This document shows positions 28,161 through 64,000 of a stretch of 64,000 bases of DNA, one piece after another. Position 1 is the first letter of the stretch. Every line of letters begins with the position of its first letter. Where the stretch lies: positions 269,283 to 333,282 of the forward strand of contig NZ_CANLNS010000005.1 of assembly GCF_947492715.1 (NCBI RefSeq), in the 5' to 3' direction. Source of the DNA: an uncultured Psychroserpens sp. GTDB taxonomy: Bacteria; Bacteroidota; Bacteroidia; Flavobacteriales; Flavobacteriaceae. Position numbers and translations under genes: made by a program. The notes under the pieces are model-generated. The model searched no databases and was not told the DNA's origin. It worked only from the letters and a program-made list of their open reading frames with translations.

Positions 28161-28312
28161 ACAAGGTGTTCTTGTTATGGTGCGCTATTTTGGTTAGGAA
28201 CTAAGTTAATAAAAGAAAACGAATTAGAGGGAAATTAGTAGGGTTTTGGGAAGGCCAATTCGCTATGTTCGTGTCTCGAGTACACTAGACCAGTCAACTC
28301 GTTATATCGGTT
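28161..28312 (-). repeat. Worn array repeat with intact core
   Basis: Left arm ACAAGGTGTTCTTGTTATGG, core GGAACTAAGTTAATAAAAG (TAACTTAG, minus) then AAACGAATTAGAGGG, an AGTAGGGTTTTGGG centre, and right arm CGTTATATCGGTTGTAAGG. Confidence 0.6.
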
Positions 28313-28325
28313 GTAAGGCGCTGTT

Positions 28326-28493
28326 TTATTTCCACTCTTTAATAAACGTTCCTTTATTATATTTTTTTGAACCTACGGTAAGCCCTCCGTTAATTATTCC
28401 AGTATTATATTCCTCTTGATCCTTTATAGTGTTTTTTGGATACAAATAAAAAATACCTTCAAGTTTTTTTGTTTCGGAATTCCAGAATATCAT
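28326..28493 (-). CDS. Small ORF in frame after the 89-residue gene
   Basis: 55 codons from an ATG at 28493 (MIFWNSETKKLEG...FIKEWK). It is in the same frame as the gene at 28518-28787, separated only by that gene's TGA and eight sense codons. The composition looks coding. It may be a separate small protein or the C-terminal part of one gene split by a stop. No family recognised. Confidence 0.4.
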   Translation of the reverse strand: MIFWNSETKKLEGIFYLYPKNTIKDQEEYNTGIINGGLTVGSKKYNKGTFIKEWK

Positions 28494-28517
28494 GAATTGT
28501 TTGAATTCAGTTCTGAC

Positions 28518-28787
28518 TCAATTTAATTTTAATTTTTTTGCGGAACAAGATTCTAACTCATCTATTGTTTTCTTCCAATTGGCTAGAACATCTTCTTCGA
28601 ACTTATCTCGGTTTAAGTCCATTGCTGTTTTTAATCTAAGACGATAAAGACTAGTAAGTTCTTTTTTCTCCTGTTCAAATCCAGAATGAAATAATACTTG
28701 CCTGTTTTGAATTTCATTCAAACATTCCTGAGCTAAATTATTTTCCTTTTCTAATTTTAGATTATTTAATACCTCTTCAAATTCCAT
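28518..28787 (-). CDS. Helical hypothetical protein, possibly truncated
   Basis: 89 residues, highly charged and helical (LNNLKLEKENNLAQECLNEI, ELTSLYRLRLKTAMDLNRD), probably coiled coil. No signal peptide. The frame continues after the TGA for 63 more codons, ending at 28326. The product may therefore be an N-terminal fragment of a longer ancestral protein. Confidence 0.45.
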   Translation of the reverse strand: MEFEEVLNNLKLEKENNLAQECLNEIQNRQVLFHSGFEQEKKELTSLYRLRLKTAMDLNRDKFEEDVLANWKKTIDELESCSAKKLKLN

Positions 28788-28815
28788 CTTTAAATTAATA
28801 TCGACCTTACTGTGC

Positions 28816-29631: not shown

Positions 29632-29641
29632 AATTAAATGC

Positions 29642-29792
29642 GAGGTGTTTGTGTATGGTTGATGCATTGGTAGTAACTAATTTAGCGAAAGGAAAAGAGC
29701 CACAGGGAAATCTGTAGGATTTTGCTAATATCAGTTTGTTAAGCTCGTGTTCGATTACATATGGCATAAGCTGTTAACTATACACCTTGCTA
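29642..29792 (-). repeat. Worn array repeat
   Basis: Left arm GAGGTGTTTGTGTATGGTTG, core AGTAACTAATTTAGCGAAAGG (TAAATTAG, minus), centre AAATCTGTAGGATTTTGC, right arm AACTATACACCTTGC. Confidence 0.6.
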
Positions 29793-29802
29793 TATACTAA
29801 TT

Positions 29803-30444: not shown

Positions 30445-30495
30445 GATTTTTAAATTTTAAATATTAATAAATGTGTTGCTTTAATTTTTGCATAT

Positions 30496-30643
30496 AACGT
30501 GTAGGTTTATGGTTCGTTATGTTGGCAAGGTCTAAGATAGTAAAAGGGAATGAATCAACGCGGAAATCTGTATGATTTTGTTAGCACAGTTTGCCTCGCT
30601 CGTATTAGAGTACACACAGACCAAGTAATTGGTTATATTCGTT
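30496..30643 (-). repeat. Array repeat, type A variant
   Basis: Left end CATATAACGTGTAGGTTTATG, core GGTCTAAGATAGTAAAAGGG (TATCTTAG, minus), an extra TTTGCCTCGCTCGTATT segment, right arm GGTTATATTCGTTGTGAGG. One GTT of the usual right end is missing. Confidence 0.6.
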
Positions 30644-30657
30644 GTGAGGTAGTGTTA

Positions 30658-31293: not shown

Positions 31294-31433
31294 AACGTTT
31301 ATGTATGACTTGTTAGAACTAAATTAGTAAAAGAAAACGAACCACAAGGAAATTTGTAGGATTTTGCTAATGCCAGTTCGCTTCGCTCGTGTATGAGTAC
31401 AAGCTGAACGAATAATTAACAATACACGTTGTT
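31294..31433 (-). repeat. attC-like array repeat, type A plus extra segment
   Basis: Left end CGTCTAACG. Core AGAACTAAATTAGTAAAAG (TAATTTAG, minus). Centre AAATTTGTAGGATTTTG. Extra CAGTTCGCTTCGCTCGTG segment. Right arm AATACACGTTGTTGTAAGC. Confidence 0.7.
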
Positions 31434-32582: not shown

Positions 32583-32708
32583 AACGTGTTCGTGTAGGAT
32601 TATGTTACGGAAAAGAACGTGCGTTATTTTCTGCTAGATTTGATTTTTATTAAAAGTAGGAATTTTTCTTGTGCTTAGCCAACTTAGCAATGAATTATAC
32701 ATGTTGTT
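32583..32708 (-). repeat. attC-like array repeat, type E
   Basis: Left arm AACAACGTGTTCGTGTAGG. The centre differs (ATTAAAAGTAGGAATTTTTC) and resembles the site at 48577. Right arm AATTATACATGTTGTTGTACAA. The TAnnTTAG core of type A is absent. Confidence 0.65.
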
Positions 32709-33224: not shown

Positions 33225-33349
33225 AATGCGTTGGTGTATGATTTCGTTGCGTATTTCTAGCAACTAATTTAGCAAATACAAACCGAATAGAAAATCCGCG
33301 AGGATTTTCGTAAGTAGGCGAGTACTAGCAATGAATTATACACGTTGTT
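33225..33349 (-). repeat. attC-like array repeat, type C
   Basis: Left GTACAATGCGTTGGTGTATG. Inner TTCGTTGCG pairs with right GCAATGAA. Core CAACTAATTTAGCAAATAC (TAAATTAG, minus). Centre AAATCCGCGAGGATTTTCG. Right ATACACGTTGTTAGGTG. Confidence 0.72.
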
Positions 33350-34695: not shown

Positions 34696-34905
34696 AACGT
34701 GTTTTTGTATGGTTTACCTTCGGTGATTATTTTCTCTAGTTCGTTTTTGTTGGCGTTATTTTTTCAAAATGTCGAGCAAAAATCTACTAGCTTTAATAGT
34801 TGATCGCGTAGGTAAGAACTAAGTTAGTAAAAGAAAACGAACCAGAGGAAAATACGTATGATTTTCGCAAGTAGGCTAGTACTAACAATGGATTATACAG
34901 GTATT
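34696..34905 (-). repeat. attC-like array repeat, long type B
   Basis: Left TTTGCTAACGTGTTTTTG. Extra hairpin segment beginning TACCTTCGGTGATTATTTTC. Core AGAACTAAGTTAGTAAAAG (TAACTTAG, minus). The right arm is damaged to TTATACAGGTATTGGCC. Confidence 0.68.
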
Positions 34906-34916
34906 GGCCACAGTAT

Positions 34917-36032: not shown

Positions 36033-36153
36033 AACGTATTCGTATAAGGTTTCGTTGCGTTAGCACTAAGTTAGCAAATAAAGAGAAATTCATCGTTCAG
36101 AAGCGACAGAAATTCTGATAGGAATTTCCAAGCAATGCATAATACAAGTTGTT
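36033..36153 (-). repeat. attC-like array repeat, type D
   Basis: Left GTTGGCTAACGTATTCG. Inner TTCGTTGCG pairs with GCAATGCA. Core CACTAAGTTAGCAAATA (TAACTTAG, minus). Centre GAAATTCTGATAGGAATTTC is a palindrome. Right ATACAAGTTGTTACCCAACG. Confidence 0.72.
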
Positions 36154-37069: not shown

Positions 37070-37307
37070 AACGTGTTCGTGTATGGTTTACCTTAGGTGA
37101 TTATTTTGCCTAGTTCGTTTTTGCTGGCGTCATTTTTTCAAAATGCCGAGCAAAAATCTACTAGCTTTAATAGTTGATCGCATTGGCTGGAACTAAGTTA
37201 GTAAACAAAAACGAACCAGAGGGAATTCCGTATGATTTTCCTTGCGCCAGTTCGCTTCGCTCGTGTCCGAGTGCATACAGAACGAGCAATTATCTATACA
37301 TGTTGTT
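37070..37307 (-). repeat. attC-like array repeat, long type B plus extra segment
   Basis: Left ATTGGGTAACGTGTTCG. The type B hairpin insert, core GGAACTAAGTTAGTAAAC (TAACTTAG, minus), then a CAGTTCGCTTCGCTCGTG segment. Right CTATACATGTTGTTGTGCAC. The longest site seen (238 bp). Confidence 0.72.
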
Positions 37308-37911: not shown

Positions 37912-38122
37912 AACGTATTTATCTATGGTTTATCTTCGGTGATTATTTTCGTTAGTTCATTTTTGCTGGCATCATTTTTTCAAAACGTCGAGCAAAAATC
38001 TACTAGCCTTAATAGTTGATCACGTTGGTTAGGTCTAAATTAGTAAAAGAAAACGAACCAGAGGGAATTCCGAAAGAATTTCTAAGTAGTCTAGAATCAA
38101 GCAATTAATTATAGACGTTGTT
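37912..38122 (-). repeat. attC-like array repeat, long type B
   Basis: Left GACGCACAACGTATTTATC. The type B insert is more diverged here. Core GGTCTAAATTAGTAAAAG (TAATTTAG, minus). Right AATTATAGACGTTGTTGGC. Confidence 0.72.
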
Positions 38123-40656: not shown

Positions 40657-40781
40657 AACGTGTTTGTGTATGATTTCGTTGCGTTGGCTAGAACTAATTT
40701 AGCAAAAGAAAACGAACCAGAGGAGATTCCGTAGGATTTTCCAAGTAGGCAATAACCTAGCAATTGATTGTAAACGTTGTT
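40657..40781 (-). repeat. attC-like array repeat, type A
   Basis: Left TTTACCAACGTGTTTGTG. Inner TTTCGTTGCG. Core AGAACTAATTTAGCAAAAG (TAAATTAG, minus). Centre GATTCCGTAGGATTTTCC. Right TTGTAAACGTTGTTGGCA. It follows a plus-strand gene. Confidence 0.74.
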
Positions 40782-41367: not shown

Positions 41368-41519
41368 AACGTGTTTGTGTATAATTTCGTTGCGTTGGCT
41401 AGGTCTAAATTAGTAAAAGAAAACGAACTAGAGGAAAATCCGTTGGATTTTGCTTGCGCCAGTTCGCTTCGCTCGTGTTCAAGTACACACAGACTGAGCA
41501 ATTAGCTATACACGTTGTT
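41368..41519 (-). repeat. attC-like array repeat, type A plus extra segment
   Basis: Left GAATGCCAACGTGTTTGTG. Core GGTCTAAATTAGTAAAAG (TAATTTAG, minus). Centre AAATCCGTTGGATTTTGC. CAGTTCGCTTCGCTCGTG segment. Right CTATACACGTTGTTGGCTAC. Confidence 0.75.
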
Positions 41520-42213: not shown

Positions 42214-42390
42214 AACGTGTTTGTGTATGGTTTGCTTCACCAGTTCGCTGCACTCGTGTGTTGCGTTGGTAAGAACTAAGTTAGCAAAAGAAACCGAACC
42301 AAATGAAAATCCGCAGGATTTTGCTTACGCCAGTTCGCTTCGCTCGTGTCCGAGTAGGCGAGAACCCAACAATTAATTATACACGTTGTT
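42214..42390 (-). repeat. attC-like array repeat, type A with two extra segments
   Basis: Left TTGCTAACGTGTTTGTG. A first CCAGTTCGCTGCACTCGTG and a second CAGTTCGCTTCGCTCGTG segment flank the core AGAACTAAGTTAGCAAAAG (TAACTTAG, minus). Right TTATACACGTTGTTGTACAA. Confidence 0.74.
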
Positions 42391-42484
42391 GTACAACGTT
42401 TTTATTTTCATCCGTCTTTCACTTCTTAACTAAAGTCAATGAATGTGTTTAATTTAAATAGGAGTTTTGCACTATAAATTAAAA

Positions 42485-43948
42485 ATGATGAAAAATATAA
42501 AAGTAATGTTCCTTTTCTTAATGATTATTGGAAATGGAAAATATGTTAAAGCACAATCTACTCAAGGAAATGATGAAATTAAGCAAAGAATAGATAATTA
42601 TTTAACTGCTGGTGTTTCTAAAGGACTATCTGGAACTGTTTTAGTTTATAAGGAAGGAAAAATCATCCTCAATAAAGGATACGGCTTTGCTGATAAGGAA
42701 AACGAAATTTTAAATACACCAACCACAGTTTTTGATATTGGTTCGGTTTCGAAGCAGTTTACTGCTGCAGCTATTCTAAAGCTGGAGGAGCAAGGGAAGC
42801 TAAAAGTAGGAGATTCATTAAGTGAATTTTTCAAGGATCTTCCAGAAGATAAAAAGAAGATTACAATTCATCAATTGCTAATACATTCAGCAGGAATTAT
42901 TAGAGCGATAGGAAAGAGTGATTTTGACATTATATCAACAGAAGACTATTTCAAAGAACTCTTTTCTACAAAACTAACTCACGAACCTGGAACAAAGCAT
43001 AAATATTCCAATGCTGGTTATAGTATTTTATCGCGAATTATTGAATTAGTATCTGGACAATCTTATGAATCATATATAAATCAATATTTGTTTATGCCAG
43101 CAGGCATGAAACATACAGGTTATTTATTACCTAAATGGAGCGATATGTCTATTGCAAAAGGTTATAGTTATAATGTAATGAACATTGGTACTATGATAGA
43201 GCGTTATAAAAAAGATAATGCTGTTTCTTGGGTTGTAATGGGTAATGGTGGAATCCATTCTACTCAAGAAGACATGTATAAATGGTATCAAGCTTTAACA
43301 TCTAATAATGTGTTATCTAAGGCACTTGTTGAGAAAATGACCAAACCTTATATTCTTGAATTTGAAGGAGAGACGAGTTATTATTCTTATGGATGGGTGG
43401 TTTTCCAATCACCTAGAAATACTAAAATGATAGCTCATGATGGAAGCAATGGGACTTTTTTCTATGATTATAGATGGTTTCCAAAGGAAGATATATTAAT
43501 TATTTATGGAACTAATGCGTTTACTACAAAAATTGGAGGTATTGGATGGTGGGTTGATAAAATGTTATTTGATGAAACATATACGCCAAAACCCATTGAA
43601 CCTGATTTTGTGAGTTCGCTTTTGGAGTATTCGGAAAAATTTAAAGGTTCATTAGCTGAATTAAAATCAAAAATTATCGAACAATTTGGTTCCGAACTTA
43701 CGAAACCGTTCTACTTAAATCGCTTGAGTGGTTTATACTCAAGGAACTATATGTTTGATAATGCAATATTGTTTGCAGAACTAAATATAGAATTATTTCC
43801 AAACGATAGTAATCTATGGGATAGTTTGGGACAGGTTTATTATAATAAAGGAAATATTAAAAAGGCATTAGTTGCTTTCAGAGAAGCTGTAGCTCTTGAT
43901 GCAAACAATTCTTATGCTCAAGAAATGATAAAGAAACTCACAAATTAA
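42485..43948 (+). CDS. Secreted serine hydrolase (beta-lactamase/class C fold) with TPR tail
   Basis: The frame opens with a TTG at 42467, but the ATG at 42485 (MMKNIKVM) gives a clean signal peptide ending KAQ. 487 residues. Motif SVSK (Ser87, Lys90), the Tyr of KYSNAGY (Tyr174) and a distal HDGSNG form the class C active site. The last about 60 residues are a TPR pair (FPNDSNLWDSLGQVYYNKGNIKKALVAFREAVAL). Likely a periplasmic peptidase or esterase. First of three plus-strand genes, the next starting 2 bp later. Confidence 0.9.
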   Translation: MMKNIKVMFLFLMIIGNGKYVKAQSTQGNDEIKQRIDNYLTAGVSKGLSGTVLVYKEGKIILNKGYGFADKENEILNTPTTVFDIGSVSKQFTAAAILKLEEQGKLKVGDSLSEFFKDLPEDKKKITIHQLLIHSAGIIRAIGKSDFDIISTEDYFKELFSTKLTHEPGTKHKYSNAGYSILSRIIELVSGQSYESYINQYLFMPAGMKHTGYLLPKWSDMSIAKGYSYNVMNIGTMIERYKKDNAVSWVVMGNGGIHSTQEDMYKWYQALTSNNVLSKALVEKMTKPYILEFEGETSYYSYGWVVFQSPRNTKMIAHDGSNGTFFYDYRWFPKEDILIIYGTNAFTTKIGGIGWWVDKMLFDETYTPKPIEPDFVSSLLEYSEKFKGSLAELKSKIIEQFGSELTKPFYLNRLSGLYSRNYMFDNAILFAELNIELFPNDSNLWDSLGQVYYNKGNIKKALVAFREAVALDANNSYAQEMIKKLTN

Positions 43949-43949
43949 A

Positions 43950-44669
43950 ATGAAAGTTGGTTCAAAATCGTATTTAAAACTTACAGGCCTTATCTATTTA
44001 CTTATTGCAATAACTGGAGGTTTTAGTATTGCTTATATGCCAAACGAGATTTTTGTTTCTGGTGATGGAATGATGACGACTCAAAATATTATTGACAATA
44101 TAGATTTGTTTCGTTTAGGAATAGTAGGTGATATTTTTGTTTTAATATTTGAAATAATACTGACAGTACTGCTTTATAGATTATTTAAGGTTGTGAGTAG
44201 CACAATTGCCATGGTTGCAACTTTCGCAAGATTCGCGATGAGTATAATTATGGGAATAAACCTTGTTAATTATTTAGTTCCTTTATTAATTCTTGAAAAA
44301 ACAGACTATTTAAATGGATTGCAAGCTAACGAGATTGATTCAATAATTCTTCTTTTTATGGAAGCACATAAATTTGGAGAATATATTTGGCAATTATTCT
44401 TTGCACTTCATTTGATAGCACTTGGCTATTTAATATTCAAGTCTAAGTATTTTCCTTGCTTTTTAGGGATATTAATGATGGTTGGAAGTATAGGCTATGC
44501 TAGTGATAGTATGATAAAATTATTGCTAATTAGCAATGAGATGGTTTCTATTGCAAATATAGTATTACTAGTGATAGCTGTTTTTGGAGAATTAGCCTTT
44601 ACATTCTGGCTTTTGATTAAAAAGATAAATTTTAGAAATCCGAATATCAATCAAATAAAAACAACATAA
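43950..44669 (+). CDS. DUF4386 membrane protein
   Basis: 239 residues with about six spans. DUF4386 text includes LTGLIYLLIAITGGFSIAYMP, DLFRLGIVGDIFVLIFEIIL and AHKFGEYIWQLFFALHLIALGYLIFKS. Inner-membrane protein of unknown role. It sits 1 bp after the serine hydrolase stop, so translation is probably coupled. Confidence 0.85.
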   Translation: MKVGSKSYLKLTGLIYLLIAITGGFSIAYMPNEIFVSGDGMMTTQNIIDNIDLFRLGIVGDIFVLIFEIILTVLLYRLFKVVSSTIAMVATFARFAMSIIMGINLVNYLVPLLILEKTDYLNGLQANEIDSIILLFMEAHKFGEYIWQLFFALHLIALGYLIFKSKYFPCFLGILMMVGSIGYASDSMIKLLLISNEMVSIANIVLLVIAVFGELAFTFWLLIKKINFRNPNINQIKTT

Positions 44670-44680
44670 GGTAACAAATT

Positions 44681-45658: not shown

Positions 45659-45667
45659 TAATGACGT

Positions 45668-46249: not shown

Positions 46250-46286
46250 AGTTATTGCTTATTATTCGGTTTTACAAATGTTGTAC

Positions 46287-47105: not shown

Positions 47106-47139
47106 ATAGTTTTAGTTACGATTTTGGAAATTGTGTACA

Positions 47140-47261
47140 ACGTGTTTGTGTATGAGTAGTAGCGAATTTATTTGCGATACTTTTCGGAAAGTAAATTACA
47201 AAATAAAAAAGAATAGCGACTTGAATATAAACTCAAATCGCTATAACTTATACACGTTGTT
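47140..47261 (-). repeat. attC-like array repeat, type F
   Basis: Left GTGTACAACGTGTTTGTG. The centre has GAATAGCGACTTGAA and TCAAATCGCTATAACTT as an imperfect stem, like the site at 24271. The TAnnTTAG core is absent. Right TTATACACGTTGTTGGCT. Its left and right outer ends are not complementary to each other, but each pairs across its gene. Confidence 0.75.
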
Positions 47262-48576: not shown

Positions 48577-48699
48577 AACGTGTTCGTGTATGGTTGGTTG
48601 CGGATAAATCCGCGAGGATTTTCCGCTGTATTGATTTTGATTAAAGGTAGGAATTTTTCTTTTGCTTAACCAACAGAGCAATTAAATATACACGTTGTT
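48577..48699 (-). repeat. attC-like array repeat, type E
   Basis: Left AGTGCCAACGTGTTCGTG. GGATAAATCCGCGAGGATTT and GATTAAAGGTAGGAATTTTTC centre. Right AATATACACGTTGTTGGCC. Shares the AGGAATTTTTC block with 32583. Confidence 0.72.
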
Positions 48700-49406: not shown

Positions 49407-49529
49407 AACGTGTAAGTGTATGGTTTGTTGTGTTGGTTTAGCACGTAATTTAGCAAATAAAACCGAATAGAAAATCCGCGAGGATTTTCGTAAGTAGGCT
49501 AGAACTTGCAATAAATTATATGCGGTGTT
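49407..49529 (-). repeat. attC-like array repeat, type C
   Basis: Left TATGGCTAACGTGTAAGTG. Core CACGTAATTTAGCAAATA (TAAATTAC, minus). Centre AAATCCGCGAGGATTTTCG. Right ATTATATGCGGTGTTACCC, slightly worn. Confidence 0.7.
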
Positions 49530-50398: not shown

Positions 50399-50523
50399 AA
50401 CGTGTTCGTGTATGATTAGTTGCGTTGGCTAGGTCTAAGATAGTAAAAGGTAATGAACCATTAGGGAAATCGGCAGGATTTTCCGAGTACAAGCTGAACA
50501 AATAATTAACTATACACGTTGTT
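50399..50523 (-). repeat. attC-like array repeat, type A
   Basis: Left TTGACTAACGTGTTCGTG. Core GGTCTAAGATAGTAAAAGG (TATCTTAG, minus). Centre AAATCGGCAGGATTTTCC. Right CTATACACGTTGTTACCC. Confidence 0.74.
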
Positions 50524-51391: not shown

Positions 51392-51513
51392 AACGTGTTC
51401 GTGTATGATTTCGTTGCGATTGGTACTAAGATATGAAATAGGAGAGAAACCATTGTTCAGCAACTAGGAAATTCCGAATAGGAATTTCAGAGCAATGAAC
51501 TATACACGTTGTT
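51392..51513 (-). repeat. attC-like array repeat, type D
   Basis: Left GTTGACTAACGTGTTCGTG. Inner TTTCGTTGCGATTGG. GTACTAAGATATGAAATAGG core (TATCTTAG, minus). Centre GGAAATTCCGAATAGGAATT. Right CTATACACGTTGTTGTAAAA. Confidence 0.74.
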
Positions 51514-52082: not shown

Positions 52083-52293
52083 AACGTGTTCGTGTATGGT
52101 TTACCTTCGGTGATTATTTTCCCTAGTTCGTTTTTGCTGGCGTCATTTTTTCAAAATGTCGAGCAAAAATCTACTAGCTTTAATAGTTGATCGCGTTGGC
52201 TAGAACTAAGTTAGCAAAAGAAAACGAACCAGAGGAAAATCCGTAGGATTTTCCGAGTAATCATTGCACGAGCAATGAATTATACACGTTGTT
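52083..52293 (-). repeat. attC-like array repeat, long type B
   Basis: Left TTTTACAACGTGTTCGTG. Type B insert. Core AGAACTAAGTTAGCAAAAG (TAACTTAG, minus). Centre AAATCCGTAGGATTTTCC. Right TTATACACGTTGTTGGCTAA. Confidence 0.78.
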
Positions 52294-52305
52294 GGCTAAC
52301 GTTTT

Positions 52306-52839
52306 TTAGTTCTCTATTATTCCAATTGGTATTTCTTCTTCCTCAATGTCGTCCAAATTCAAGGTGGGAATTACTTTCTCTTCTTCGGTTCTTAGGTCAG
52401 GACAACTTGCTAATTTTGCCCTTTTTTTAAATTCAGATAGAGTTTTGCTTTTCCACATTTTTAAATTTGTAGAGTCAATTTCATCATAATCAAATTCAGC
52501 TTTGTTTAGTTCAAGTTTGTCCCAGCTATAAGTGCTTTTTAAAATAATTTTACTTTTAGATTGAGAAATTGTAACAAGTGTGTCGTTATTTATGAGTAGT
52601 CCAAGTCCATTTTTAAATTTCGATAAAATTAATGTGCTGTCAGTGATCTTGTTTTGAAAAAGCCAAACTTCATCGGATACTGTTGTTAGATTTATGACAT
52701 ACTTGTCTGTTATTTTATATTCGGAATAATTACCATCCTTATGGCATATATTCCAAGTTCCAATTGCGATGTGTTTTTTATTCGCTTTTTGACAACCGAA
52801 AACTAAAAAAAGAACAAATATTATTTTCAGGTATCTCAT
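52306..52839 (-). CDS. Hypothetical lipoprotein
   Basis: 177 residues with a lipobox (FLVFGC). Lipocalin-like repeated strands: IGTWNICHKDGNYSEYKIT, SDEVWLFQNKITDSTLILSK, ILKSTYSWDKLELNKAEFDY. The acidic C-terminus (DDIEEEEIPIGIIEN) is odd for the group. One-gene cassette with complementary ends GTTGGCTAACG and TTTGCCAAC. Confidence 0.55.
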   Translation of the reverse strand: MRYLKIIFVLFLVFGCQKANKKHIAIGTWNICHKDGNYSEYKITDKYVINLTTVSDEVWLFQNKITDSTLILSKFKNGLGLLINNDTLVTISQSKSKIILKSTYSWDKLELNKAEFDYDEIDSTNLKMWKSKTLSEFKKRAKLASCPDLRTEEEKVIPTLNLDDIEEEEIPIGIIEN

Positions 52840-52855
52840 GTCTCAAATGTTTGCC

Positions 52856-53066
52856 AACGTGTTAGTGTATGGTTTACCTTCGGTGATTATTTTCCCTAGT
52901 TCGTTTTTGCTAGCGTCATTTTTTCAAAATGTCGAGCAAAAATCTACTAGCTTTAATAGTTGATTGCGTTGGCTAGGTCTAAATTAGTAAAAGAAAGCGA
53001 ACCAGAGGAAAATCCGTAGGATTTAGCAAGTAGGCGAGAACCAAGCAATTGATTATACACGTTGTT
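52856..53066 (-). repeat. attC-like array repeat, long type B
   Basis: Left TTTGCCAACGTGTTAGTG. Type B insert. Core GGTCTAAATTAGTAAAAG (TAATTTAG, minus), then AAGCGAACCAGAGG. Right TTATACACGTTGTTAGCAAC. Confidence 0.77.
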
Positions 53067-53131
53067 AGCAACTGGCTTTTTATTGGTTTATATTTCTTTC
53101 CAAATGGTTTTATAATCAGGAAATTTGCTTT

Positions 53132-53506
53132 TTAATCTTGAAATAAATAATGGGCTTGCGAATATAATTCTGCTGAAGGTTCAACTTCAGTAACCTCATT
53201 ATCTTCAACTTTCCAAGCTTTAATTCCAATATCACTTGAGTTAAGAAGTAAATAATTGTCCATATCACTCCAACCAACTTCCCATCTGCTAAAATCTCCA
53301 GCTCCAGACTCAATTTTTGCTATCAGTTGTTTTTTAGAATTATAAATTTCAAAAATAGGTTCAGCATAAAATTCCGCATTTTTGTCAGTCCGATTTACTT
53401 TTGCAATTACAGAGAATTTTCCATCCAAGGATTTTTTTTCAGATTCAACATAATCAGAACAACTAAAAATTAAAAATAGAACGACAAATAATGTTAGGTT
53501 TTTCAT
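53132..53506 (-). CDS. Small hypothetical lipoprotein, possible C-terminal frameshift
   Basis: 124 residues with a lipobox (LFLIFSC). A strand-rich domain follows (KFSVIAKVNRTDKNAEF, YAEPIFEIYNSKKQLIAKI, WSDMDNYLLLNS). The frame ends at LYSQAHYLFQD. In another frame the text ASPLFISRLKSKFPDYKTI then WKEI and a stop at 53088 looks more protein-like, so a single-base indel near 53160 is possible. Ends GTTAGCAACTGG and GTTGCCAAC are complementary. Confidence 0.55.
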   Translation of the reverse strand: MKNLTLFVVLFLIFSCSDYVESEKKSLDGKFSVIAKVNRTDKNAEFYAEPIFEIYNSKKQLIAKIESGAGDFSRWEVGWSDMDNYLLLNSSDIGIKAWKVEDNEVTEVEPSAELYSQAHYLFQD

Positions 53507-53522
53507 TTTTCAGCTTGTTGCC

Positions 53523-53733
53523 AACGTGTTCGTGTATGGTTTACCTTCGGTGATTATTTTCCCTAGTTCGTTTTTGCTGGCGTCATTTTTTCAAAATGTC
53601 GAGCAAAAATCTACTAGCTTTAATAGTTGATCGCGTAGGCTGGAACTAAGTTAGCAAAAGAAAACGAACCAGAGGAAAATCCGTAGGATTTTCCGAGTAC
53701 ACACAAACTTAGCAATTGATTATACACGTTGTT
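53523..53733 (-). repeat. attC-like array repeat, long type B
   Basis: Left TGTTGCCAACGTGTTCGTG. Type B insert. Core GGAACTAAGTTAGCAAAAG (TAACTTAG, minus). Centre AAATCCGTAGGATTTTCC. Right TTATACACGTTGTTGGCTG. Confidence 0.78.
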
Positions 53734-53751
53734 GGCTGTTGGCTTTTTACC

Positions 53752-54090
53752 TTATGCAGTTCCAACATAGTCTCTATTCCAATCTAACCATTTATTATAT
53801 ATCAAATTTTTTAGATTTTCCAATTCTGCATGTTTTTCCGCTAGAGGATAAACAGATTCTTTCATTTTTTTCATTTGTGAATCCGTCAAGTTTTCATTCC
53901 ATATTAATTCCGTTCCGTATTTTATAATTCCACTTATATGCTCATTATTGAGTGCTTTTTCAAATTTATTCCAATCTGATTTTAAAGTTTCAACATGTCT
54001 TTTTTTTCGTTTAGATAGCCAGATAAAATAAACGATTAGTGCAAGTAGAAGAATAGAAAAAGTTATAATAAGTAATAATCCGTTATCCAT
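53752..54090 (-). CDS. Single-span membrane protein with coiled tail
   Basis: 112 residues: one N-terminal span (3-24, GLLLIITFSILLLALIVYFIW) then a basic helix (LSKRKKRHVETLKSDWNKFEK) and a helical domain (DSQMKKMKESVYPLAEKHAELENLKNL). No family recognised. Ends GTTGGCTGTTGG and TTACTGCCAAC pair with one mismatch. Confidence 0.5.
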   Translation of the reverse strand: MDNGLLLIITFSILLLALIVYFIWLSKRKKRHVETLKSDWNKFEKALNNEHISGIIKYGTELIWNENLTDSQMKKMKESVYPLAEKHAELENLKNLIYNKWLDWNRDYVGTA

Positions 54091-54113
54091 AATTAGTTTT
54101 CGAGCTTACTGCC

Positions 54114-54302
54114 AACGGTCTTGTGTATGGCTCGTTGCATGCAAATTAGCGAATGTTTTTCGGTTGAGCACAAGCCAGATTTTTAAATTTTACTATTTAT
54201 CTTCTTTCTTGGAAATCATCAAATTTAAAAATTTGGCGACTTTCCAAATACGCCTTGACTTCGACTTAAGCAACTGAACAGCAATGAGCTATACACGTTG
54301 TT
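54114..54302 (-). repeat. attC-like array repeat, divergent centre (type G)
   Basis: Left TACTGCCAACGGTCTTGTG lacks the usual GTGTT spacer. The centre (TTTTTCGGTTGAGCACAAGC and TTTAAATTTTACTATTTATC) is unlike other types. Right CTATACACGTTGTTGTAACA. Confidence 0.68.
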
Positions 54303-54313
54303 GTAACACGTAT

Positions 54314-55249
54314 TTATAGTTCTATTTTAAATAATCCATAATTCGTAGCAATCCACGCAATATCATTTTCAATTGCTATATCTAAAATTGCATTTCCTCT
54401 TTGTCGGAAAAATATAGATTGTATTTTGTCTTTTGATACAATATTCAGCCCATCGTTTGTCGCCAACCAATAATTTCCGTCGTCATCGATTTCTATATCT
54501 CTAACCATATTATTTGATAAATCAGAATTATCTTTATTCACGTGATTCCATTTATCATTTTTTAGGATTGAATAACCACCAGTTATATTTCCTCCATAAC
54601 CAATATAAAGTTCATTATCATCATATAATCTTAAAGCTCGAACATATTGTTGTAGTTCAGAATTTTCGGTTGTTAGAGATTGCCATTTTGAGTTTTTATA
54701 AATTAGAAGTCCGTTATTGTGGCCAATATAAATTTCTTTGTCGTTTCTGACAGCCAATGCTCTTATTGTGACACTTTTCGGTAGTTTGATTTTATTCCAT
54801 TCAGTTCCGTTGAAAGAAGTCAGTCCGTTTGAACCTCCAAAGTATATTATTCCGTTTTCATCTTCTGTTATATCGATGATTGAAATTTTAGATAATTTGA
54901 TTTCGCTTGAAGAATAAGTCGTCCAATCTTTTCCATCAAATTTTGCTAAACCATCTGGTTGCGAAAATGATGCCCAAATATTATCTTTTGAGTCGATAAA
55001 AATTGGGGAAATATATTTTCCTTTAATAACTGAATTTTTGGCGTCAAAAGTTGTAAAATTTTCGCCATCAAATTTTATAAGTCCAGATTTTGCACTTCCT
55101 AGCCATTTGTTTCCTTCTTTATCAACTGCGATTGACCAAAAGTCATCATCTGTCAATTCAGAGTTTTCTTTCGTAAAATGCTCGATATTTTGTCCAAAGC
55201 TAAATTGGATAAATAGAATTATTAATATGGACGATAATGTTTTTCTCAT
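54314..55249 (-). CDS. Two-component-regulator-propeller protein, secreted
   Basis: 311 residues with a signal peptide (IILFIQFSFGQ). Reg_prop blades repeat: FWSIAVDKEGNKWLGSAKSGLIKFDG, ISPIFIDSKDNIWASFSQPDGLAKFDG, IIDITEDENGIIYFGGSNGLTSFNG and VRDIEIDDDGNYWLATNDGL. No kinase is attached. Same architecture as the lipoprotein at 31447 but only distantly similar in text. Ends GTTGTAACACG and TGTGTTACAAC are exactly complementary. Confidence 0.9.
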   Translation of the reverse strand: MRKTLSSILIILFIQFSFGQNIEHFTKENSELTDDDFWSIAVDKEGNKWLGSAKSGLIKFDGENFTTFDAKNSVIKGKYISPIFIDSKDNIWASFSQPDGLAKFDGKDWTTYSSSEIKLSKISIIDITEDENGIIYFGGSNGLTSFNGTEWNKIKLPKSVTIRALAVRNDKEIYIGHNNGLLIYKNSKWQSLTTENSELQQYVRALRLYDDNELYIGYGGNITGGYSILKNDKWNHVNKDNSDLSNNMVRDIEIDDDGNYWLATNDGLNIVSKDKIQSIFFRQRGNAILDIAIENDIAWIATNYGLFKIEL

Positions 55250-55258
55250 ATGTGTTAC

Positions 55259-55469
55259 AACGTGTTTGTGTATGGTTTACCTTCGGTGATTATTTTCCCT
55301 AGTTCGTTTTTGCTGGCGTCATTTTTTCAAAATGTCGAGCAAAAATCTACTAGCTTTAATAGTTGATCGCGTTGGCAAGAACTAAGTTAGCAAAAGAAAA
55401 CGAACCAGAGGAAAATCCGTAAGATTTTCCGAGTACACACAAAGCAAACAATGGGTTATACACGTTGTT
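55259..55469 (-). repeat. attC-like array repeat, long type B
   Basis: Left TGTTACAACGTGTTTGTG. Type B insert. Core AGAACTAAGTTAGCAAAAG (TAACTTAG, minus). Centre AAATCCGTAAGATTTTCC. Right TTATACACGTTGTTGTGCA. Confidence 0.78.
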
Positions 55470-56077: not shown

Positions 56078-56200
56078 AACGGTCTTGTATATGAAAAGTA
56101 GCGGATTTTATGCACTATTTTTTCAATTTAACAATGACCTCTAATTTATTCATTTTCTTTAGATTAAGCGATTAAACCGCTATTTTTTATATACGTTGTT
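56078..56200 (-). repeat. attC-like array repeat, divergent centre (type H)
   Basis: Left TATTGCCAACGGTCTTGTA. Inner stem AGTAGCGGATTTT with AAACCGCTATTTT. Right TATATACGTTGTTAGGAAAC. The TAnnTTAG core is absent. The inner GCGG arms resemble type F. Confidence 0.68.
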
Positions 56201-56887: not shown

Positions 56888-57013
56888 AACGTGTTCGTGT
56901 ATGGTTTCGTTGTTTTAGTTTAGTACTAAATTAGCAAAAGAAAACGAACCAGATGAAAATCCGCAGGATTTTCCGAGTACACACAAAACGAGTAATTGAC
57001 TATACACGTTGTT
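56888..57013 (-). repeat. attC-like array repeat, type A
   Basis: Left GTTGCCTAACGTGTTCGTG. Core AGTACTAAATTAGCAAAAG (TAATTTAG, minus). Centre AAATCCGCAGGATTTTCC. Right CTATACACGTTGTTGTGAGT. Confidence 0.76.
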
Positions 57014-57565: not shown

Positions 57566-57689
57566 AACGTGTTTGTGTATGATTTCGTTGCGTGTTTCAG
57601 CAACTAAATTAGCAAATACAAACCGAATAGAAAATCCGCGAGGATTTTCGTAAGTAGGCGAGTACTAGCAATGAATTATACACGTTGTT
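57566..57689 (-). repeat. attC-like array repeat, type C
   Basis: Left ACTCACAACGTGTTTGTG. Inner TTTCGTTGCG with GCAATGAA. Core CAACTAAATTAGCAAATAC (TAATTTAG, minus). Centre AAATCCGCGAGGATTTTCG. Right TTATACACGTTGTTGTATGC. Confidence 0.77.
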
Positions 57690-58440: not shown

Positions 58441-58563
58441 AACGTGTTCGTGTATGGTTAGTTGCGTTGGCTAGAACTAAGTTAGCAAAAGAAAACGAAC
58501 CAGAGGAAAATCCGCAGGATTTTCCGAGTACGCACAGAAGAGCAATTAATTATACACGTTGTT
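58441..58563 (-). repeat. attC-like array repeat, type A (reference copy)
   Basis: Left ATGGCATACAACGTGTTCGTG. Core AGAACTAAGTTAGCAAAAG (TAACTTAG, minus) then AAACGAACCAGAGG. Centre AAAATCCGCAGGATTTTCC is a perfect short palindrome. Right TTATACACGTTGTTACCTGC. 123 bp from AAC to GTT, close in length to the Vibrio VCR type of attC. Confidence 0.8.
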
Positions 58564-58573
58564 ACCTGCTGTA

Positions 58574-59245
58574 TTATTTCAATGGATTCCTTAAGATAAA
58601 ATCTCGTACAGAATTGAGCATTAATGCTACTTGATCTTTATTATATTCTGAATAATTTCCATGTGCAGCTTTGTTCCGTAAATCTAACCAAGCAGTAATG
58701 TTTTTTTCATCAAGTTTATTATAGACACTTAATTTTGCTAGTTCAGCATTAATTAAGTTTGCTTTTTTAGGTCTGTCTTTGGCATCTCTTATAGGGTTTC
58801 CAGCAAAAGTTGATAATTGCCGCATATGTTCTTCCAAAATACTTCCAATCATAACAGCCGATGCATCTTTATAATTTTCACTCAATAAATGTTCACTCAT
58901 TTCAAGAAAATCAGAGAAGATTTCTGCAGAAATTAAGCCTTTTATTGATGCTAGCCAATCATTGGCTATTTCAAATTTTATTGCGTTAAGTATACCACGA
59001 AGGATTTTATATGAATGATGAGAGTGATTCCCTTTAAATTCTAGATAATAAGGGTGATTTTTTCCATAAAGATTTAAAATTAGAGAAAGAGATGAAGACT
59101 TTATTTGTGAGTAAAGTTCGGTGTCATATTCTGTAGTAAAAGTTCTTCGTCCAGAAATAACTCTAGGTTTTTTAGTAATCGTAGATTCGTAAGTATCTAT
59201 ACTTCCTATTATTCCATTTATTCTATCTAATAATCTTTGCTTCAT
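58574..59245 (-). CDS. HEPN-like protein, possible defence or RNase role
   Basis: 223 residues, all helical, cytoplasmic. The C-terminal part carries WLDLRNKAAHG with Arg190 and His195, the Rx4-6H signature of HEPN RNases. The preceding DASAVMIGSILEEHMRQLSTF helix also fits the DUF4145/HEPN layout. HEPN domains often act as RNases in toxin-antitoxin and abortive-infection systems. No MNT or other antitoxin partner is adjacent. Ends GTTACCTGCTG and TTGCAGGTAAC are exactly complementary. Confidence 0.72.
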   Translation of the reverse strand: MKQRLLDRINGIIGSIDTYESTITKKPRVISGRRTFTTEYDTELYSQIKSSSLSLILNLYGKNHPYYLEFKGNHSHHSYKILRGILNAIKFEIANDWLASIKGLISAEIFSDFLEMSEHLLSENYKDASAVMIGSILEEHMRQLSTFAGNPIRDAKDRPKKANLINAELAKLSVYNKLDEKNITAWLDLRNKAAHGNYSEYNKDQVALMLNSVRDFILRNPLK

Positions 59246-59254
59246 ATTGCAGGT

Positions 59255-59378
59255 AACGTGTTCGTGTATGGTTAGTTGCGTTGGCTATGTCTAAATTAGT
59301 AAAAGAAAACGAACCAGAGGAAAATCCGTAGGATTTTCCGAGTACACACAGAACAAGCAATTAAATATACACGTTGTT
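59255..59378 (-). repeat. attC-like array repeat, type A
   Basis: Left TTGCAGGTAACGTGTTCGTG. Core TGTCTAAATTAGTAAAAG (TAATTTAG, minus). Centre AAATCCGTAGGATTTTCC. Right AATATACACGTTGTTGTACA. Confidence 0.78.
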
Positions 59379-60395: not shown

Positions 60396-60516
60396 AACGT
60401 GTTCGTGTATGGTTTCGTTGCGTCTGCACTAAGATAGCAAATAGGAGCGAACCCATTGTTCAGAAGCGACAGAAATTCCGATAGGAATTTCCGAGCAATG
60501 AACTATACGCGTTGTT
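60396..60516 (-). repeat. attC-like array repeat, type D
   Basis: Left TTGTACAACGTGTTCGTG. Inner TTTCGTTGCG pairs with GCAATGAAC. Core CACTAAGATAGCAAATAGG (TATCTTAG, minus). Palindromic centre AAATTCCGATAGGAATTTCC. Right CTATACGCGTTGTTATATGC. Confidence 0.76.
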
Positions 60517-60717
60517 ATATGCTGTTGCGAAACAGAAGAGTAAACACGTATTGCCTCAAGGACGCTAGGAATAAACGAGCAAGAGTAATCACATTTAGTT
60601 GTAAGTAGCTCACGTTTTGCTATTTGAGTAAGTACGTATTGCCACAACCAAGCTAACGTACAGAGAGTATAAGTAAGTAGATAAATTGAGTTTGAGTGAG
60701 AATGAGCAATTGCTTGT
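60517..60717. other. ORF-less cassette 1
   Basis: A 201-bp cassette between two attC-like sites, with no convincing ORF on either strand (a 72-residue frame at 60429-60647 mostly reads the repeat). It has the usual cassette ends (GTTATATGC..., ...TTGCTTGTAAC, mostly complementary). It carries repeated GAGTAA-type words and shares two blocks with the second ORF-less cassette: GAGCAAGAGTAATCACAT and AAGCTAACGTACAGAGAGTA. It could encode a non-coding RNA, transcribed leftward from the repeat promoter element. Confidence 0.55.
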
Positions 60718-60841
60718 AACGTGTTCGTGTATGGTTAGTTACGTAGGCAATGTCTAAGATAGTAAAAGAGAACGAACCATTAGGTAAATCCGCAGGATTT
60801 TCCGAGTGCAAGCTGTACTAGTAATTAGTTATACACGTTGT
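60718..60841 (-). repeat. attC-like array repeat, type A
   Basis: Left TGCTTGTAACGTGTTCGTG. Core TGTCTAAGATAGTAAAAGAG (TATCTTAG, minus). Centre AAATCCGCAGGATTTTCC. Right TTATACACGTTGTTGTAAGT. It lies between ORF-less cassette 1 and the lipoprotein at 60854. Confidence 0.77.
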
Positions 60842-60853
60842 TGTAAGTAGTTT

Positions 60854-61638: not shown

Positions 61639-61762
61639 AACGTGTTCGTGTATGGTTAGTTGCGTTGGCAAGAACTAAGTTAGCAAAAGAAAACGAACCA
61701 GAGGAAAATCCGTAGGATTTTCCGAGTACACACACAATCAGCAATGAACTATACACGTTGTT
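61639..61762 (-). repeat. attC-like array repeat, type A
   Basis: Left TACTTACAACGTGTTCGTG. Core AGAACTAAGTTAGCAAAAG (TAACTTAG, minus). Centre AAATCCGTAGGATTTTCC. Right CTATACACGTTGTTATGTAC. Confidence 0.78.
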
Positions 61763-61953
61763 ATGTACTGTTGCAACACAATAGAGTAAGAACGTGTTAC
61801 CATAACCAATCTAAGGTAAAGTGAGCAAGAGTAAGCACATAAAGCCGTAAACGAGCTAACGCAAGGAATTTTGAGTAATCAGTTTTCGCCGAAATAAGCT
61901 AACGTAAAGAGAGTATGAGTAAGTTACAAGAGTGAGAAGTTGCAATTGTACCT
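61763..61953. other. ORF-less cassette 2
   Basis: A 191-bp cassette with no ORF. Its ends GTTATGTACTGTTGCAAC and TTGCAATTGTACCTAAC are strongly complementary. It shares blocks with ORF-less cassette 1: GAGCAAGAGTAAGCACAT and AAGCTAACGTAAAGAGAGTA, plus several GAGTAAG-like words (GAGTAAGAAC, GAGTAATC, GAGTATGAGTAAGTTA, GAGTGAGAAG). A family of non-coding RNA or recombination-only cassettes is possible. Confidence 0.55.
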
Positions 61954-62077
61954 AACGTGTTCGTGTATAGTTTGTTGCGGAAAAGTACACGTTTATTTTT
62001 CCGCAGTTACAATATAGTGAAAAGCACACAAAGATCGTCGTCTTAACCAGCTAGAGCAATTGGCTATACGCGTTGTT
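61954..62077 (-). repeat. attC-like array repeat, type E
   Basis: Left TTGTACCTAACGTGTTCGTG. Centre GCGGAAAAGTACACG with TTTTTCCGC. Right GGCTATACGCGTTGTTATG. No TAnnTTAG core. Confidence 0.72.
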
Positions 62078-63893
62078 ATGTGGCGTTTTCAAAATCGAAA
62101 TGTTGAATTTGTATGTTTATACTAACTCCTTTATAGTATCCATCAAAATTTAGAACTTGTCTTTTTTCTCCAGTTTCAGGATCTTTAAATTCTCGAAAAT
62201 ATCTTTGGTTGACTGGAGCAGAAATAATATGTTTTTCAAATTTCAACCAATTATTTAAAGTATTCTCAATTGTAGTTTCAATTGGTTGATCTTTAAATTT
62301 AGCGTAATGTTTTAATATTGATGAAATCACAGCAAACTTACCATATCGTAAAGCATAACCATAGTTGATAATACCATCTTTATTGTTTACTTCTTGTTTA
62401 AACTTACTTTGTATTTTGTTTAAATGATTATACACTAAAAATGCAAAAACATATTCTTTATATCTGCTTGAATCATTTAGTGTGTTTTCAAAATTTGACT
62501 TTTTAAATAAAGTCTTACTTCCTGTTCTTCTTGCTTGAGATGGTTTTTGACTTATTGCTAGAATTAGTCTTAACATTAACTCTCGATCAATGATTTGTGA
62601 TCTGTCTATATATTTATTCCTAATTCCTTCTCCAAATTCGCCTGATTTTCGTTGATAAAAATAACCGTATTTATCATAGATCAATGTTTGTAAATCTATT
62701 TGTATTTTATCATTTGACCTTCTATCAGCATCACTTACAGCAGTTTGTTGATTTGTAGCTTTGGAGATTTCTTCTATTAATTTTAATTTTTTTTCACCTT
62801 TTTCATCTACTTCGTTAGAAAAGGTTATAACCTTTAGCAAAACTTCTTTTTTGTCAAAAATGCTTATTGATTTATTGCCTTGAATCACATCAGCGTATAA
62901 CATACTTAAAGTATAAGCTGTTTGGCCTCCATTAATAATTTGAGGGTTTTTGAGTATTAATTGACCAATGCCTTTTTTTCCTATTTTTTTATTTAAATCT
63001 GTTTCGTCAGAAAGAATAGTAATACCATTGTTAAAAAGAGCAAACTCATTTGTTTTTTTTGAAACTATTGTGTTAGCTATTGAGGCATTTACGCTTCCCG
63101 AGTGCATATCTAAATAACTTCTAGGATTATATTTTAAAATAGAATTCTTGTATTTGTATAGAGTTTTTGCAATCTCAATAGTAGGGACAAATAATACTGA
63201 AATCTCACAATCTTTAAATTCCGTTTCAACAGAATAACTTATGTCTTCGGAGTTTTTATCCAAAAGGTTTATTGATATCGCTAATTCTGATTGATTATAA
63301 AAAGTTCCCGTTACCACTGGAAAAACTAATTCTTTATAAGTTTTGGAATGATTAAATTCACTAACAGGATTGCTATCTGAAAGTTTTCTTAATTTATTTT
63401 GAGAAATCTCTTTTGTATTCGCAAGAATAATAATTTCATATTTGTACCTTCCCATATCAGGTATTTCTTGCAATTCTTTAATTAAGTTTTGAATATTTAC
63501 ATTATAATTTTTTCCATTTTCATATTTAGTTTCTCCTTCAGTAATTCTATCAATATCCATATTAAGTAGTTCACCATATTTGATTTCTCTACTTTCAAAA
63601 TTTTCTTGATTAGTTCTAAATTTTGCTTGTATAAAGTAAATAGCTTTATTATTCTTGTCGATATAATATCCGTCAATACCACCATCATCGATTCCATCTG
63701 TTACAAATTTTATTCGATCTTCAAAATTTAAGAGTCCAAATTTTACTTTTAAGAATAGATGAACATATGCTCTTGATCTAGCATTATTTAATTTGTCAAT
63801 CTCATTTTCTAAAGGATGATAGAATTTATAATCTTCAGGAGCTTCTTTTCTTAAAATGTCAAGAATATTGATAAGGGTTGTGTATTTACTCAT
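62076..63893 (-). CDS. AIPR-family abortive-infection protein
   Basis: 605 residues. The N-terminal part has GIDDGGIDGYYI (67-78) followed by FIQAKF (87-92), a PD-(D/E)xK-type nuclease motif (Asp, then Gln-x-Lys). The middle shows the AIPR signature: NPRSYLD at 256-262, FNNGITI at 287-293 and INGGQTA at 320-326. AIPR proteins are linked to abortive infection and phage resistance. This one seems complete and is the rightmost gene of the array in view. The TAA stop is read from the variable GTTATG end of the repeat, and the cassette ends GTTATGTGGCG and TGACACATAAC are complementary. Confidence 0.9.
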   Translation of the reverse strand: MSKYTTLINILDILRKEAPEDYKFYHPLENEIDKLNNARSRAYVHLFLKVKFGLLNFEDRIKFVTDGIDDGGIDGYYIDKNNKAIYFIQAKFRTNQENFESREIKYGELLNMDIDRITEGETKYENGKNYNVNIQNLIKELQEIPDMGRYKYEIIILANTKEISQNKLRKLSDSNPVSEFNHSKTYKELVFPVVTGTFYNQSELAISINLLDKNSEDISYSVETEFKDCEISVLFVPTIEIAKTLYKYKNSILKYNPRSYLDMHSGSVNASIANTIVSKKTNEFALFNNGITILSDETDLNKKIGKKGIGQLILKNPQIINGGQTAYTLSMLYADVIQGNKSISIFDKKEVLLKVITFSNEVDEKGEKKLKLIEEISKATNQQTAVSDADRRSNDKIQIDLQTLIYDKYGYFYQRKSGEFGEGIRNKYIDRSQIIDRELMLRLILAISQKPSQARRTGSKTLFKKSNFENTLNDSSRYKEYVFAFLVYNHLNKIQSKFKQEVNNKDGIINYGYALRYGKFAVISSILKHYAKFKDQPIETTIENTLNNWLKFEKHIISAPVNQRYFREFKDPETGEKRQVLNFDGYYKGVSINIQIQHFDFENAT

Positions 63894-63924
63894 TGAATTA
63901 TGAAGTTAGTTTTTAATGACACAT

Positions 63925-64000
63925 AACGGTCTTGGCTATGGTTTCGTTGCGGAATGGTTCGGTAGAACTATTCCGTCGTAAATCAAAGTTAGCAAATACG
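63925..64000 (-). repeat. attC-like array repeat, cut by window edge
   Basis: Left ACACATAACGGTCTTGGCTA. Inner TTTCGTTGCGGAATGG. Partial core AATCAAAGTTAGCAAATAC. It shows the array continues to the right. Confidence 0.7.

Follow-up and report, generated by a model that had tools for sequence, protein, structure and literature searches.

The window analyzed here, a 64,000-nucleotide stretch of an uncultured Psychroserpens sp. (Bacteroidota; Flavobacteriaceae; contig NZ_CANLNS010000005.1, positions 269,283 to 333,282), very probably represents that part of an integron-like cassette array which lies away from attI, and its likely builder is a tyrosine recombinase of a Bacteroidia type that would insert cassettes at an attI site behind its own gene. 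The system is integron-like by anatomy and appears to belong to Bacteroidia, with an integrase lineage of its own. The window (G000:C5:269283-333282) makes up the rightmost 64 kb of C5, a contig in a 4.2-Mb draft genome; its right edge is the end of the contig (333,282), and the array is cut at position 64000 for that reason.

We located the attC-like sites by the pairing of their arms, which gave 31 in the window and another 34 in the rest of the genome, and by a covariance model built from 38 of this genome's own sites, which match by construction. The model found 42 window sites at E ≤ 0.01, spanning 7,193 to 62,077 and all on the plus strand, and 90 sites in the whole genome; at E ≤ 1, all of 45 window sites were on the plus strand and none on the minus strand. 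More than 30 related imperfect palindromes had been reported in the initial annotation, and both searches recovered that number; the array, however, does not begin at 28,161 as proposed there, but further left, with weaker sites of the same orientation back to 7,193. The arm pattern with up to two mismatches matched 65 times in the genome, compared with 2 matches for the same pattern read backwards, and stretches from contigs C2, C7, C6 and C11 each showed one site orientation per contig. Sites are chiefly 121-127 nt long, with other types of 150-152, 177, 189, 211-212 and 238 nt. The 211-nt type (37912-38122, 46287-46498, 52083-55469) is interspersed with the 121-127-nt type and often carries ACCTTCGGTGATTA behind the left arm. 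We chose 42 open reading frames (ORFs) in the interval 28.5-63.9 kb as likely genes; the minus strand carries 38 of them, and for most a site comes right behind the stop. The expected arrangement of mostly one gene between sites was borne out. An Rfam scan of the window gave no match at gathering scores.

Classic integrons exchange strands at a point inside attC, so that each cassette has the last piece of its own palindrome at its front. We compared the 6 nt outside the GTT at one end of each unit with the reverse complement of the 6 nt at the other end, scoring as failures those units that hold a site missed by the arm search. For 60 units on five contigs of this genome, 264 of 360 positions matched, and the best of 10,000 permutations reached 164; the window alone contributed 139 of 180 positions over 30 units. 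The two flanks of the same site matched at 2.35 of 6 positions, near the 2.12 of random pairs. The complete same-genus genome G007 gave a similar result: in the first 120 kb from its integrase there are 128 sites, none in the opposite orientation, and its units matched at 696 of 762 positions (permutation mean 283, maximum 354), compared with 302 of 768 for same-site flanks. Because the variable end bases are complementary within a unit and near chance across a site, we conclude from these sequences that the units between the sites are cassettes, and the integron-like anatomy and polarity initially proposed were right. A dispersed repeat, a terminal-inverted-repeat transposon and a target duplication were also considered and discarded, since the variable ends are inverted within the unit and not across the site. 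Syntenic, vertically inherited genes had been named as evidence that would speak against an integron; in the first 120 kb of G007, a protein match was found for 3 of the 54 ORF-bearing cassettes of the present genome.

The plus-strand arms read AAC-(GTGTT)-CGTGTATGGTT and, opposite, ATACACG-(TT)-GTT. They form an attC-like site with an inner stem of 17 pairs, an unpaired spacer of 5 + 2 nt and then an outer stem; only in the circular form do the variable bases that belong to the cassette complete this outer stem. Pairing was present in 93.7% of 745 cells over 38 sites, the structure having been chosen from these same sequences, and versions slid along the alignment reached at most 49%; at one stem position, 11 of the 38 sites have A-T, 10 have C-G and 8 have no pair. 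The R boxes follow GTTR in 57 of 65 sites, GTTRRRY in 6 and RYYYAAC in 4, in line with the earlier remark that they are GTTR but not always RRRY. A G.T pair is retained in 61 of 65 sites, where the opposite strand has A.C mismatches. With the loop shortened, folding favoured the plus strand over its complement in 62 of 65 sites, and at full length it did so in 38 of 42. Arm pairing and strand bias would favour recombination of attC as a folded bottom strand, whereas full-length folds contain the named stem in only 11 of 42 sites.

The genome encodes three Phage_integrase proteins (on C1, C4 and C11). That on C11 is a tyrosine recombinase of 305 aa whose gene is read in the direction of three attC-like sites. 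The stretch from its stop to the first cassette gene contains an attI-like sequence, GCTAACGTGTTATATGAGGATAAATATACACG, and the first cassette starts there: AGCCAAC comes after the exchange point and is found again, in inverted form, where this cassette ends. Two features of functional integrons, an attI beside the integrase where cassettes begin (on C11 and in relatives) and cassette units whose ends are complementary and whose gene is followed by a palindromic site, are thus present. A second attI ends the array on C2, where about 72 nt are nearly identical to those of C11, including only about the last 9 integrase codons; the first cassette there carries the end-complementarity signature too (GTAAGC). 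The genome therefore has two attI and an integrase of working length at only one. Judging by the orientation, the window contig C5 may join the integrase contig C11. TAnnTTTG is the promoter consensus of Bacteroidota, and a box of this form was present in 25 of 75 recognised attI (L041-L148), compared with 2.5 expected, and 23 of these boxes have the same distance of 25 nt to the exchange point that follows; the attI of this genome has TATATTTA. The box could be a cassette promoter (Pc), or it could be an integrase-binding arm. In a sample of 37 contigs ending within 260 nt of an integrase (two being the same contig), contig ends fell 0-2 nt after the attI GTT in 8 cases by script and 1 more by eye, whereas an even spread of ends would give about 0.4; such breaks would reflect mixed first cassettes in the sequenced cells. 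Ten more ends fell 111-130 nt further on, possibly as k-mer overlaps.

We further compared this integrase with IntI and Xer proteins. The spacing between the KGxKDR and HxLRH motifs was 64-65 residues in 35 of 36 proteins of class A, to which the integrase belongs (one could not be measured), and in 18 of 18 class B proteins, compared with 66-68 in XerA and 106 in 14 of 15 IntI (the remaining one likewise unmeasurable). Residues 183-240 of IntI4 (2a3v) fall outside both stretches that align to the integrase, which scored 203 bits against TIGR02249, below the cut-off of 265. These alignments indicate that the Bacteroidia integrase lacks the IntI-specific additional domain around patch III. The nearest solved structure by sequence was XerA; the fold comparison was a tie between IntI and XerA, with 2a3v as the top match. 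Two trees were computed, with all rows and without two long rows (a 176-residue row was left out of both), and the 15 IntI came from one search with one query. Class A and the sampled IntI each formed one clade (support 100), and the integrase lay outside the sampled IntI clade; support was 64/10 for a sister relation of class A and IntI, and 99/95 for the split between a XerC-D/XerA side and a side with IntI and these integrases. Canonical IntI gave no match in this genome at E ≤ 1e-50 and was found in 1 of 198 Bacteroidia genomes. That rare canonical IntI, L149 (G164), scored 422 bits over TIGR02249. The system falls outside the IntI-based family because the IntI domain, membership of the IntI clade and the R-box consensus were each examined and not found. 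The initial annotation had offered either the distal part of a classic integron or a cluster of attC sites lacking an integrase (CALIN), and neither description fits without qualification: no canonical IntI was found in the genome, and the recombinase at attI is of another lineage without the IntI-specific domain. The absence of any tyrosine recombinase, which it had listed as counterevidence, does not hold either, since one adjoins such arrays. As to the definition of a CALIN, C5 as assembled has no integrase, whereas C11 has attI, integrase and the same sites.

The arrangement recurs among relatives. An integrase homolog at E ≤ 1e-40 was detected in 22 of 23 genomes of the genus, and the 16 closest integrases (class A, this one included) are all followed within about 45 nt, as judged by eye, by TATAAC-N-AGTT or an ACGTT variant. 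A set of named genomes comprised the best 80 loci of a longer list, nearly all labelled as genera of Flavobacteriaceae or Flavobacteriales, with one metagenome-assembled genome labelled Chlorobiota. A relaxed attI pattern was found in 71 of these best 80 loci, two of the 71 probably by chance, and downstream of the integrases lay 120 attC-like sites in one orientation, with none opposite and none in 731 kb upstream; at least one downstream site was present in 34 of 38 loci with more than 2 kb downstream (43 of 80 overall). Complete genomes supplied 20 loci, of which 12 belong to class A and the other 8 to more distant classes. We looked before AAC for an inverted copy of the 7 nt that follow the GTT of attI; the copy was exact in 12 loci, had one mismatch in 6 and was absent from 2, and most, but not all, of these copies were followed by an attC-like core. 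An attI test covered 119 loci with more than 600 nt downstream, which share some genomes with the other sets (one frameless locus was left out); 67 scored, whereas altered targets gave 3, 4 and 1 and GTTs taken 200-400 nt away gave 6. In a class-wide, control-free set of 40 extra loci, the integrase frame was readable in 39; 29 loci were long enough, and 10 of those scored. G007 carries at least 150 sites, the 150 scored ones all on one strand, from 1,838,279 to 2,083,523 (245 kb), starting 0.8 kb behind a class A integrase; this is roughly twice the length of the superintegron in Vibrio cholerae. Integrase homologs occur in 146 of 295 Bacteroidia genomes, not all of them with proven arrays. 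As judged from these loci, the same attI/attC arrangement recurs across Flavobacteriaceae. Some side observations concern the more distant integrases: those of class B and of a third group (L192-L199, L057-L066) have a different attI and attC-like cores similar to those of class A, and several distant attI are near-perfect palindromes, for example GGATATAG-n6-CTATATCC before AATTGTT. Two further contigs (G318:C1 and G343:C1; L212, L213) encode several related tyrosine recombinases of 298-304 residues (8 listed for G318, 4 for G343) on a separate branch, perhaps a transposable element.

We propose the following mechanism. In this genome (on C11) and in the complete relative, the sequences show an integrase gene that reads toward the array, with an attI-like sequence within about 45 nt behind it where the first cassette starts. 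Circles, mostly of single genes, would be inserted by the integrase at this attI. The integrase would fold and cut one strand of attC, the plus strand of the window, whose stem keeps the G.T pairs, and strand exchange would take place at GTT. New cassettes would enter at attI while older ones are pushed away and decay, and the promoter-like TAnnTTTG box inside many attI may drive the newest cassettes.

Several observations weigh against this interpretation or parts of it. Covariation in the stem is modest, with 4 two-sided pair changes compared with 2.4 in shuffled alignments, 78 of 500 of which were as high. The attI is not a lookalike of a folded attC, and the attC-like sites are more alike in sequence than classic attC are. 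No exact attI match was found in 52 of the 119 loci and none in 19 of the 29 class-wide loci of the control-free set. The integrase is on another contig (C11), and C5 could instead join the second attI, on C2. Finally, the genus has 16 integrases of class A (L034:2553-3470 compared with L042-L056), of which 13 possess an N-terminal extra part of about 85 residues (..WS....WY..), and the integrase of this genome lacks it, as do those of G011 and G004.

The folding step bears on the most serious alternative, namely that everything is as proposed except that circles are inserted at a fixed site by double-stranded, Xer-type exchange without a folded single strand. Full-length folds formed the named stem in only 11 of 42 sites, a shifted register in 15 and neither in 16, which also speaks against our interpretation; the bottom-strand preference is accordingly no more than predicted. 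Folded sites without unpaired bases and arm pairing had initially been named as counterevidence; the arms do pair around an unpaired spacer, although only a minority of full-length folds contain this stem. Insertion of the Xer type would also accord with XerA as the closest solved sequence, with the tied fold comparison, with the missing IntI domain and with the near-palindromic attI of several class B loci. On the other hand, the complementarity of R'' to R' of the same cassette has no evident role in double-strand exchange, and the strand-biased G.T pairs and conserved arms point to folding. We regard this alternative, which overlaps with the proposed mechanism and does not exclude it, as unlikely.

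A classic integron or CALIN, whose ordinary IntI was lost or lies elsewhere and whose neighbouring recombinase is a mere passenger, would share the layout R''-L''-L'-R', the polarity and the cassette logic, and bacterial attC clusters without integrase outnumber complete integrons according to the excerpted text of PMC9668308. Yet the near absence of canonical IntI from these genomes, the R boxes that miss the consensus and the non-IntI recombinase that adjoins the array attI in many genera render this explanation quite improbable. Still less credible, to the point of being hardly tenable, is a dispersed palindromic repeat, similar to a repetitive extragenic palindrome or a miniature inverted-repeat transposable element, that settled behind genes without recombination of gene units. 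The arm sequences are strongly conserved and one-family repeats do spread between genes, but such a repeat leaves unexplained the end-to-end complementarity of each gene unit, the uniform orientation (0 of 128 opposite in G007), the confinement to one side of the integrase and the same bases at attI. 

Compared with known systems, the array resembles sedentary chromosomal integrons such as the Vibrio superintegron (IntIA) in its integrase gene, its attI and the long row of cassettes, mostly with one gene each, that share one orientation; the attC-like palindromes likewise measure about 125 nt, and the two ends of a cassette complement each other. The IntI structure 2a3v was, as noted, the top fold match. 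The present system differs in an integrase that is outside the sampled IntI clade, lacks the IntI-specific domain and reads toward the array, in R boxes that are mostly not GTTRRRY/RYYYAAC and in its Bacteroidia host. The Treponema chromosomal integron (PMC3607928, as excerpted) likewise has its integrase transcribed toward attI in the cassette direction, but the gene there is intI, whereas here the integrase is not an IntI. The window alone resembles CALINs, as excerpts of PMC9024848 and PMC9668308 describe them, in having sites and no integrase; in contrast, an integrase stands next to an attI in this genome, together with the same sites, which mostly miss the standard attC consensus. XerA and XerC-D share the fold family and a similar motif spacing (66-68 vs 64-65 residues), whereas the present integrases are on a separate branch (99/95) and next to cassette arrays. 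Integron-type sites have also been described in Polaribacter phage P12002L, whose host is a related marine bacterium (PMC9892861, excerpt); those attC, in contrast, were predicted by standard models, and one of two was active with IntI1. When we searched with site 58441-58563, none of 50,697 phage records matched, and among plasmids one Tenacibaculum record did (73%).

Regarding cassette content, 40 of the 42 picked window ORFs were compared with Pfam and 18 reached the cut-off. The families include peroxiredoxin, GNAT, PIG-L, hydrolases, TetR, RibD_C, a serine beta-lactamase fold with TPR, cyclic-nucleotide-binding, OmpA and AIPR, and no common theme was seen. A defence island was unsupported, with a PADLOC match for 1 of 10 proteins chosen from the 42 ORFs. 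One cassette of 3.9 kb (42391-46286) holds several genes, three on the opposite strand (a serine beta-lactamase-fold protein with TPR, a DUF4386 protein and an unknown one) and one in the array direction. Cassettes without a 60-aa ORF occur on C5, C2 and C11 as four copies of 191 nt and two of 201 nt, with 97.5-99.5% identity among copies of the same kind. For a cassette protein of 516 aa on C7, G274 encodes a relative with 82% identity, alone between two sites that follow a class B integrase; another relative, with 81% identity and 321 residues up to where the locus breaks off, comes after a site in Polaribacter sp. WD7. Because of these relatives, cassettes appear to pass between genera and between integrase classes. 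Together with the contig ends at attI, such duplicated and shared cassettes may be indirect signs of insertion, excision and shuffling. Feature coordinates are listed in Table 1.

Table 1. Coordinates of the array, its sites and selected cassettes (AP, arm pairing; CM, covariance model)
Feature	Position	Strand	Basis or remark
Entire cassette array in window	7193-64000	+	sites on + as 'bottom' strand, cassette genes mostly -; attI side to right
Distal part, weak attC-like sites, probably decaying	7193-28272	+	11 sites, 18-50 bits, CM
Weak attC-like site	7193-7290	+	CM
Weak attC-like site	9038-9131	+	CM
Weak attC-like site	14123-14235	+	CM
Weak attC-like site	18430-18547	+	CM
Weak attC-like site	19557-19657	+	CM
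Weak attC-like site	20624-20772	+	CM
Weak attC-like site	22350-22469	+	CM
Weak attC-like site	24283-24406	+	CM, E 0.07
Weak attC-like site	24966-25088	+	CM
Weak attC-like site	25995-26119	+	CM
Weak attC-like site	28163-28272	+	CM
attC-like site	29642-29791	+	AP + CM
attC-like site	30496-30646	+	AP + CM
attC-like site	31294-31433	+	CM
attC-like site	32583-32708	+	AP + CM
attC-like site	33225-33349	+	AP + CM
attC-like site, 211-nt type	34696-34906	+	AP; CM matches inner part
attC-like site	36033-36153	+	AP + CM
attC-like site, 238 nt	37070-37307	+	AP; CM matches 37163-37307
attC-like site, 211-nt type	37912-38122	+	AP; CM matches 37997-38122
attC-like site	40657-40781	+	AP + CM
attC-like site	41368-41519	+	AP + CM
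attC-like site	42214-42390	+	AP + CM
attC-like site, 212 nt	46287-46498	+	AP; CM matches 46372-46498
attC-like site	47139-47261	+	AP + CM
attC-like site	48577-48699	+	AP + CM
attC-like site	49407-49529	+	AP + CM
attC-like site	50399-50523	+	AP + CM
attC-like site	51392-51513	+	AP + CM
attC-like site, 211-nt type	52083-52293	+	AP; CM matches 52168-52293
attC-like site, 211-nt type	52856-53066	+	AP; CM matches 52941-53066
attC-like site, 211-nt type	53523-53733	+	AP; CM matches 53608-53733
attC-like site	54114-54302	+	AP + CM
attC-like site, 211-nt type	55259-55469	+	AP; CM matches 55358-55469
attC-like site	56078-56200	+	CM
attC-like site	56888-57013	+	AP + CM
attC-like site	57566-57689	+	AP + CM
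attC-like site, 131 bits, joint best of window	58441-58563	+	AP + CM
Model cassette, one gene 58574-59245 (-)	58564-59254	-	ACCTGC at left end, GCAGGT at right end, reverse complements
attC-like site	59255-59378	+	AP + CM
attC-like site	60396-60516	+	AP + CM
Cassette without 60-aa ORF	60517-60717	-	second copy on C2, 97.5% identical
attC-like site	60718-60842	+	AP + CM
attC-like site	61639-61762	+	AP + CM
Cassette without 60-aa ORF	61763-61953	-	copies: two on C2, one on C11, 97.9-99.0% identical
attC-like site	61954-62077	+	AP + CM
AIPR/AbiU-like gene, 605 aa, last complete cassette gene of window	62076-63893	-	
Further attC-like site, start only, cut by contig end	63922-64000	+	CM, E 0.52
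Second attI (outside window)	L037 (G000:C2:509000-528039), ~8.3 kb from L037 start; C2rc 10686		array that lost its integrase

Integron surveys pick integrases by the extra domain (PMC2426708, PMC9668308), and very few integrons are reported from Bacteroidetes, with one complete integron named, in Salinibacter (PMC9024848), as far as the excerpted texts go. No description of the present system was found in the titles and abstract openings of open-licence PMC articles, a search that leaves subscription journals and preprints aside. Given palindromic sites between genes together with an integrase and an insertion site unlike the classic ones, it is likely that these bacteria have an integron-like gene-capture system of their own that standard surveys would miss. 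Somewhat more tentatively, we favour the view that it is a second integron lineage, the Bacteroidia's own cassette capture with an integrase that recognises hairpin attC sites though it lacks the domain held to be essential for IntI, present in up to about half of the genomes and with arrays exceeding 240 kb, and either an independent invention or a surviving ancestral form from before IntI gained its extra domain. If so, a large part of a phylum common in the sea, soil and gut would have gone uncounted for integrons, and the cassettes, present by the hundred in some genomes, would constitute an unexplored gene pool. A natural integrase without the supposed key domain would moreover make the origin of IntI's use of folded single-strand sites testable.

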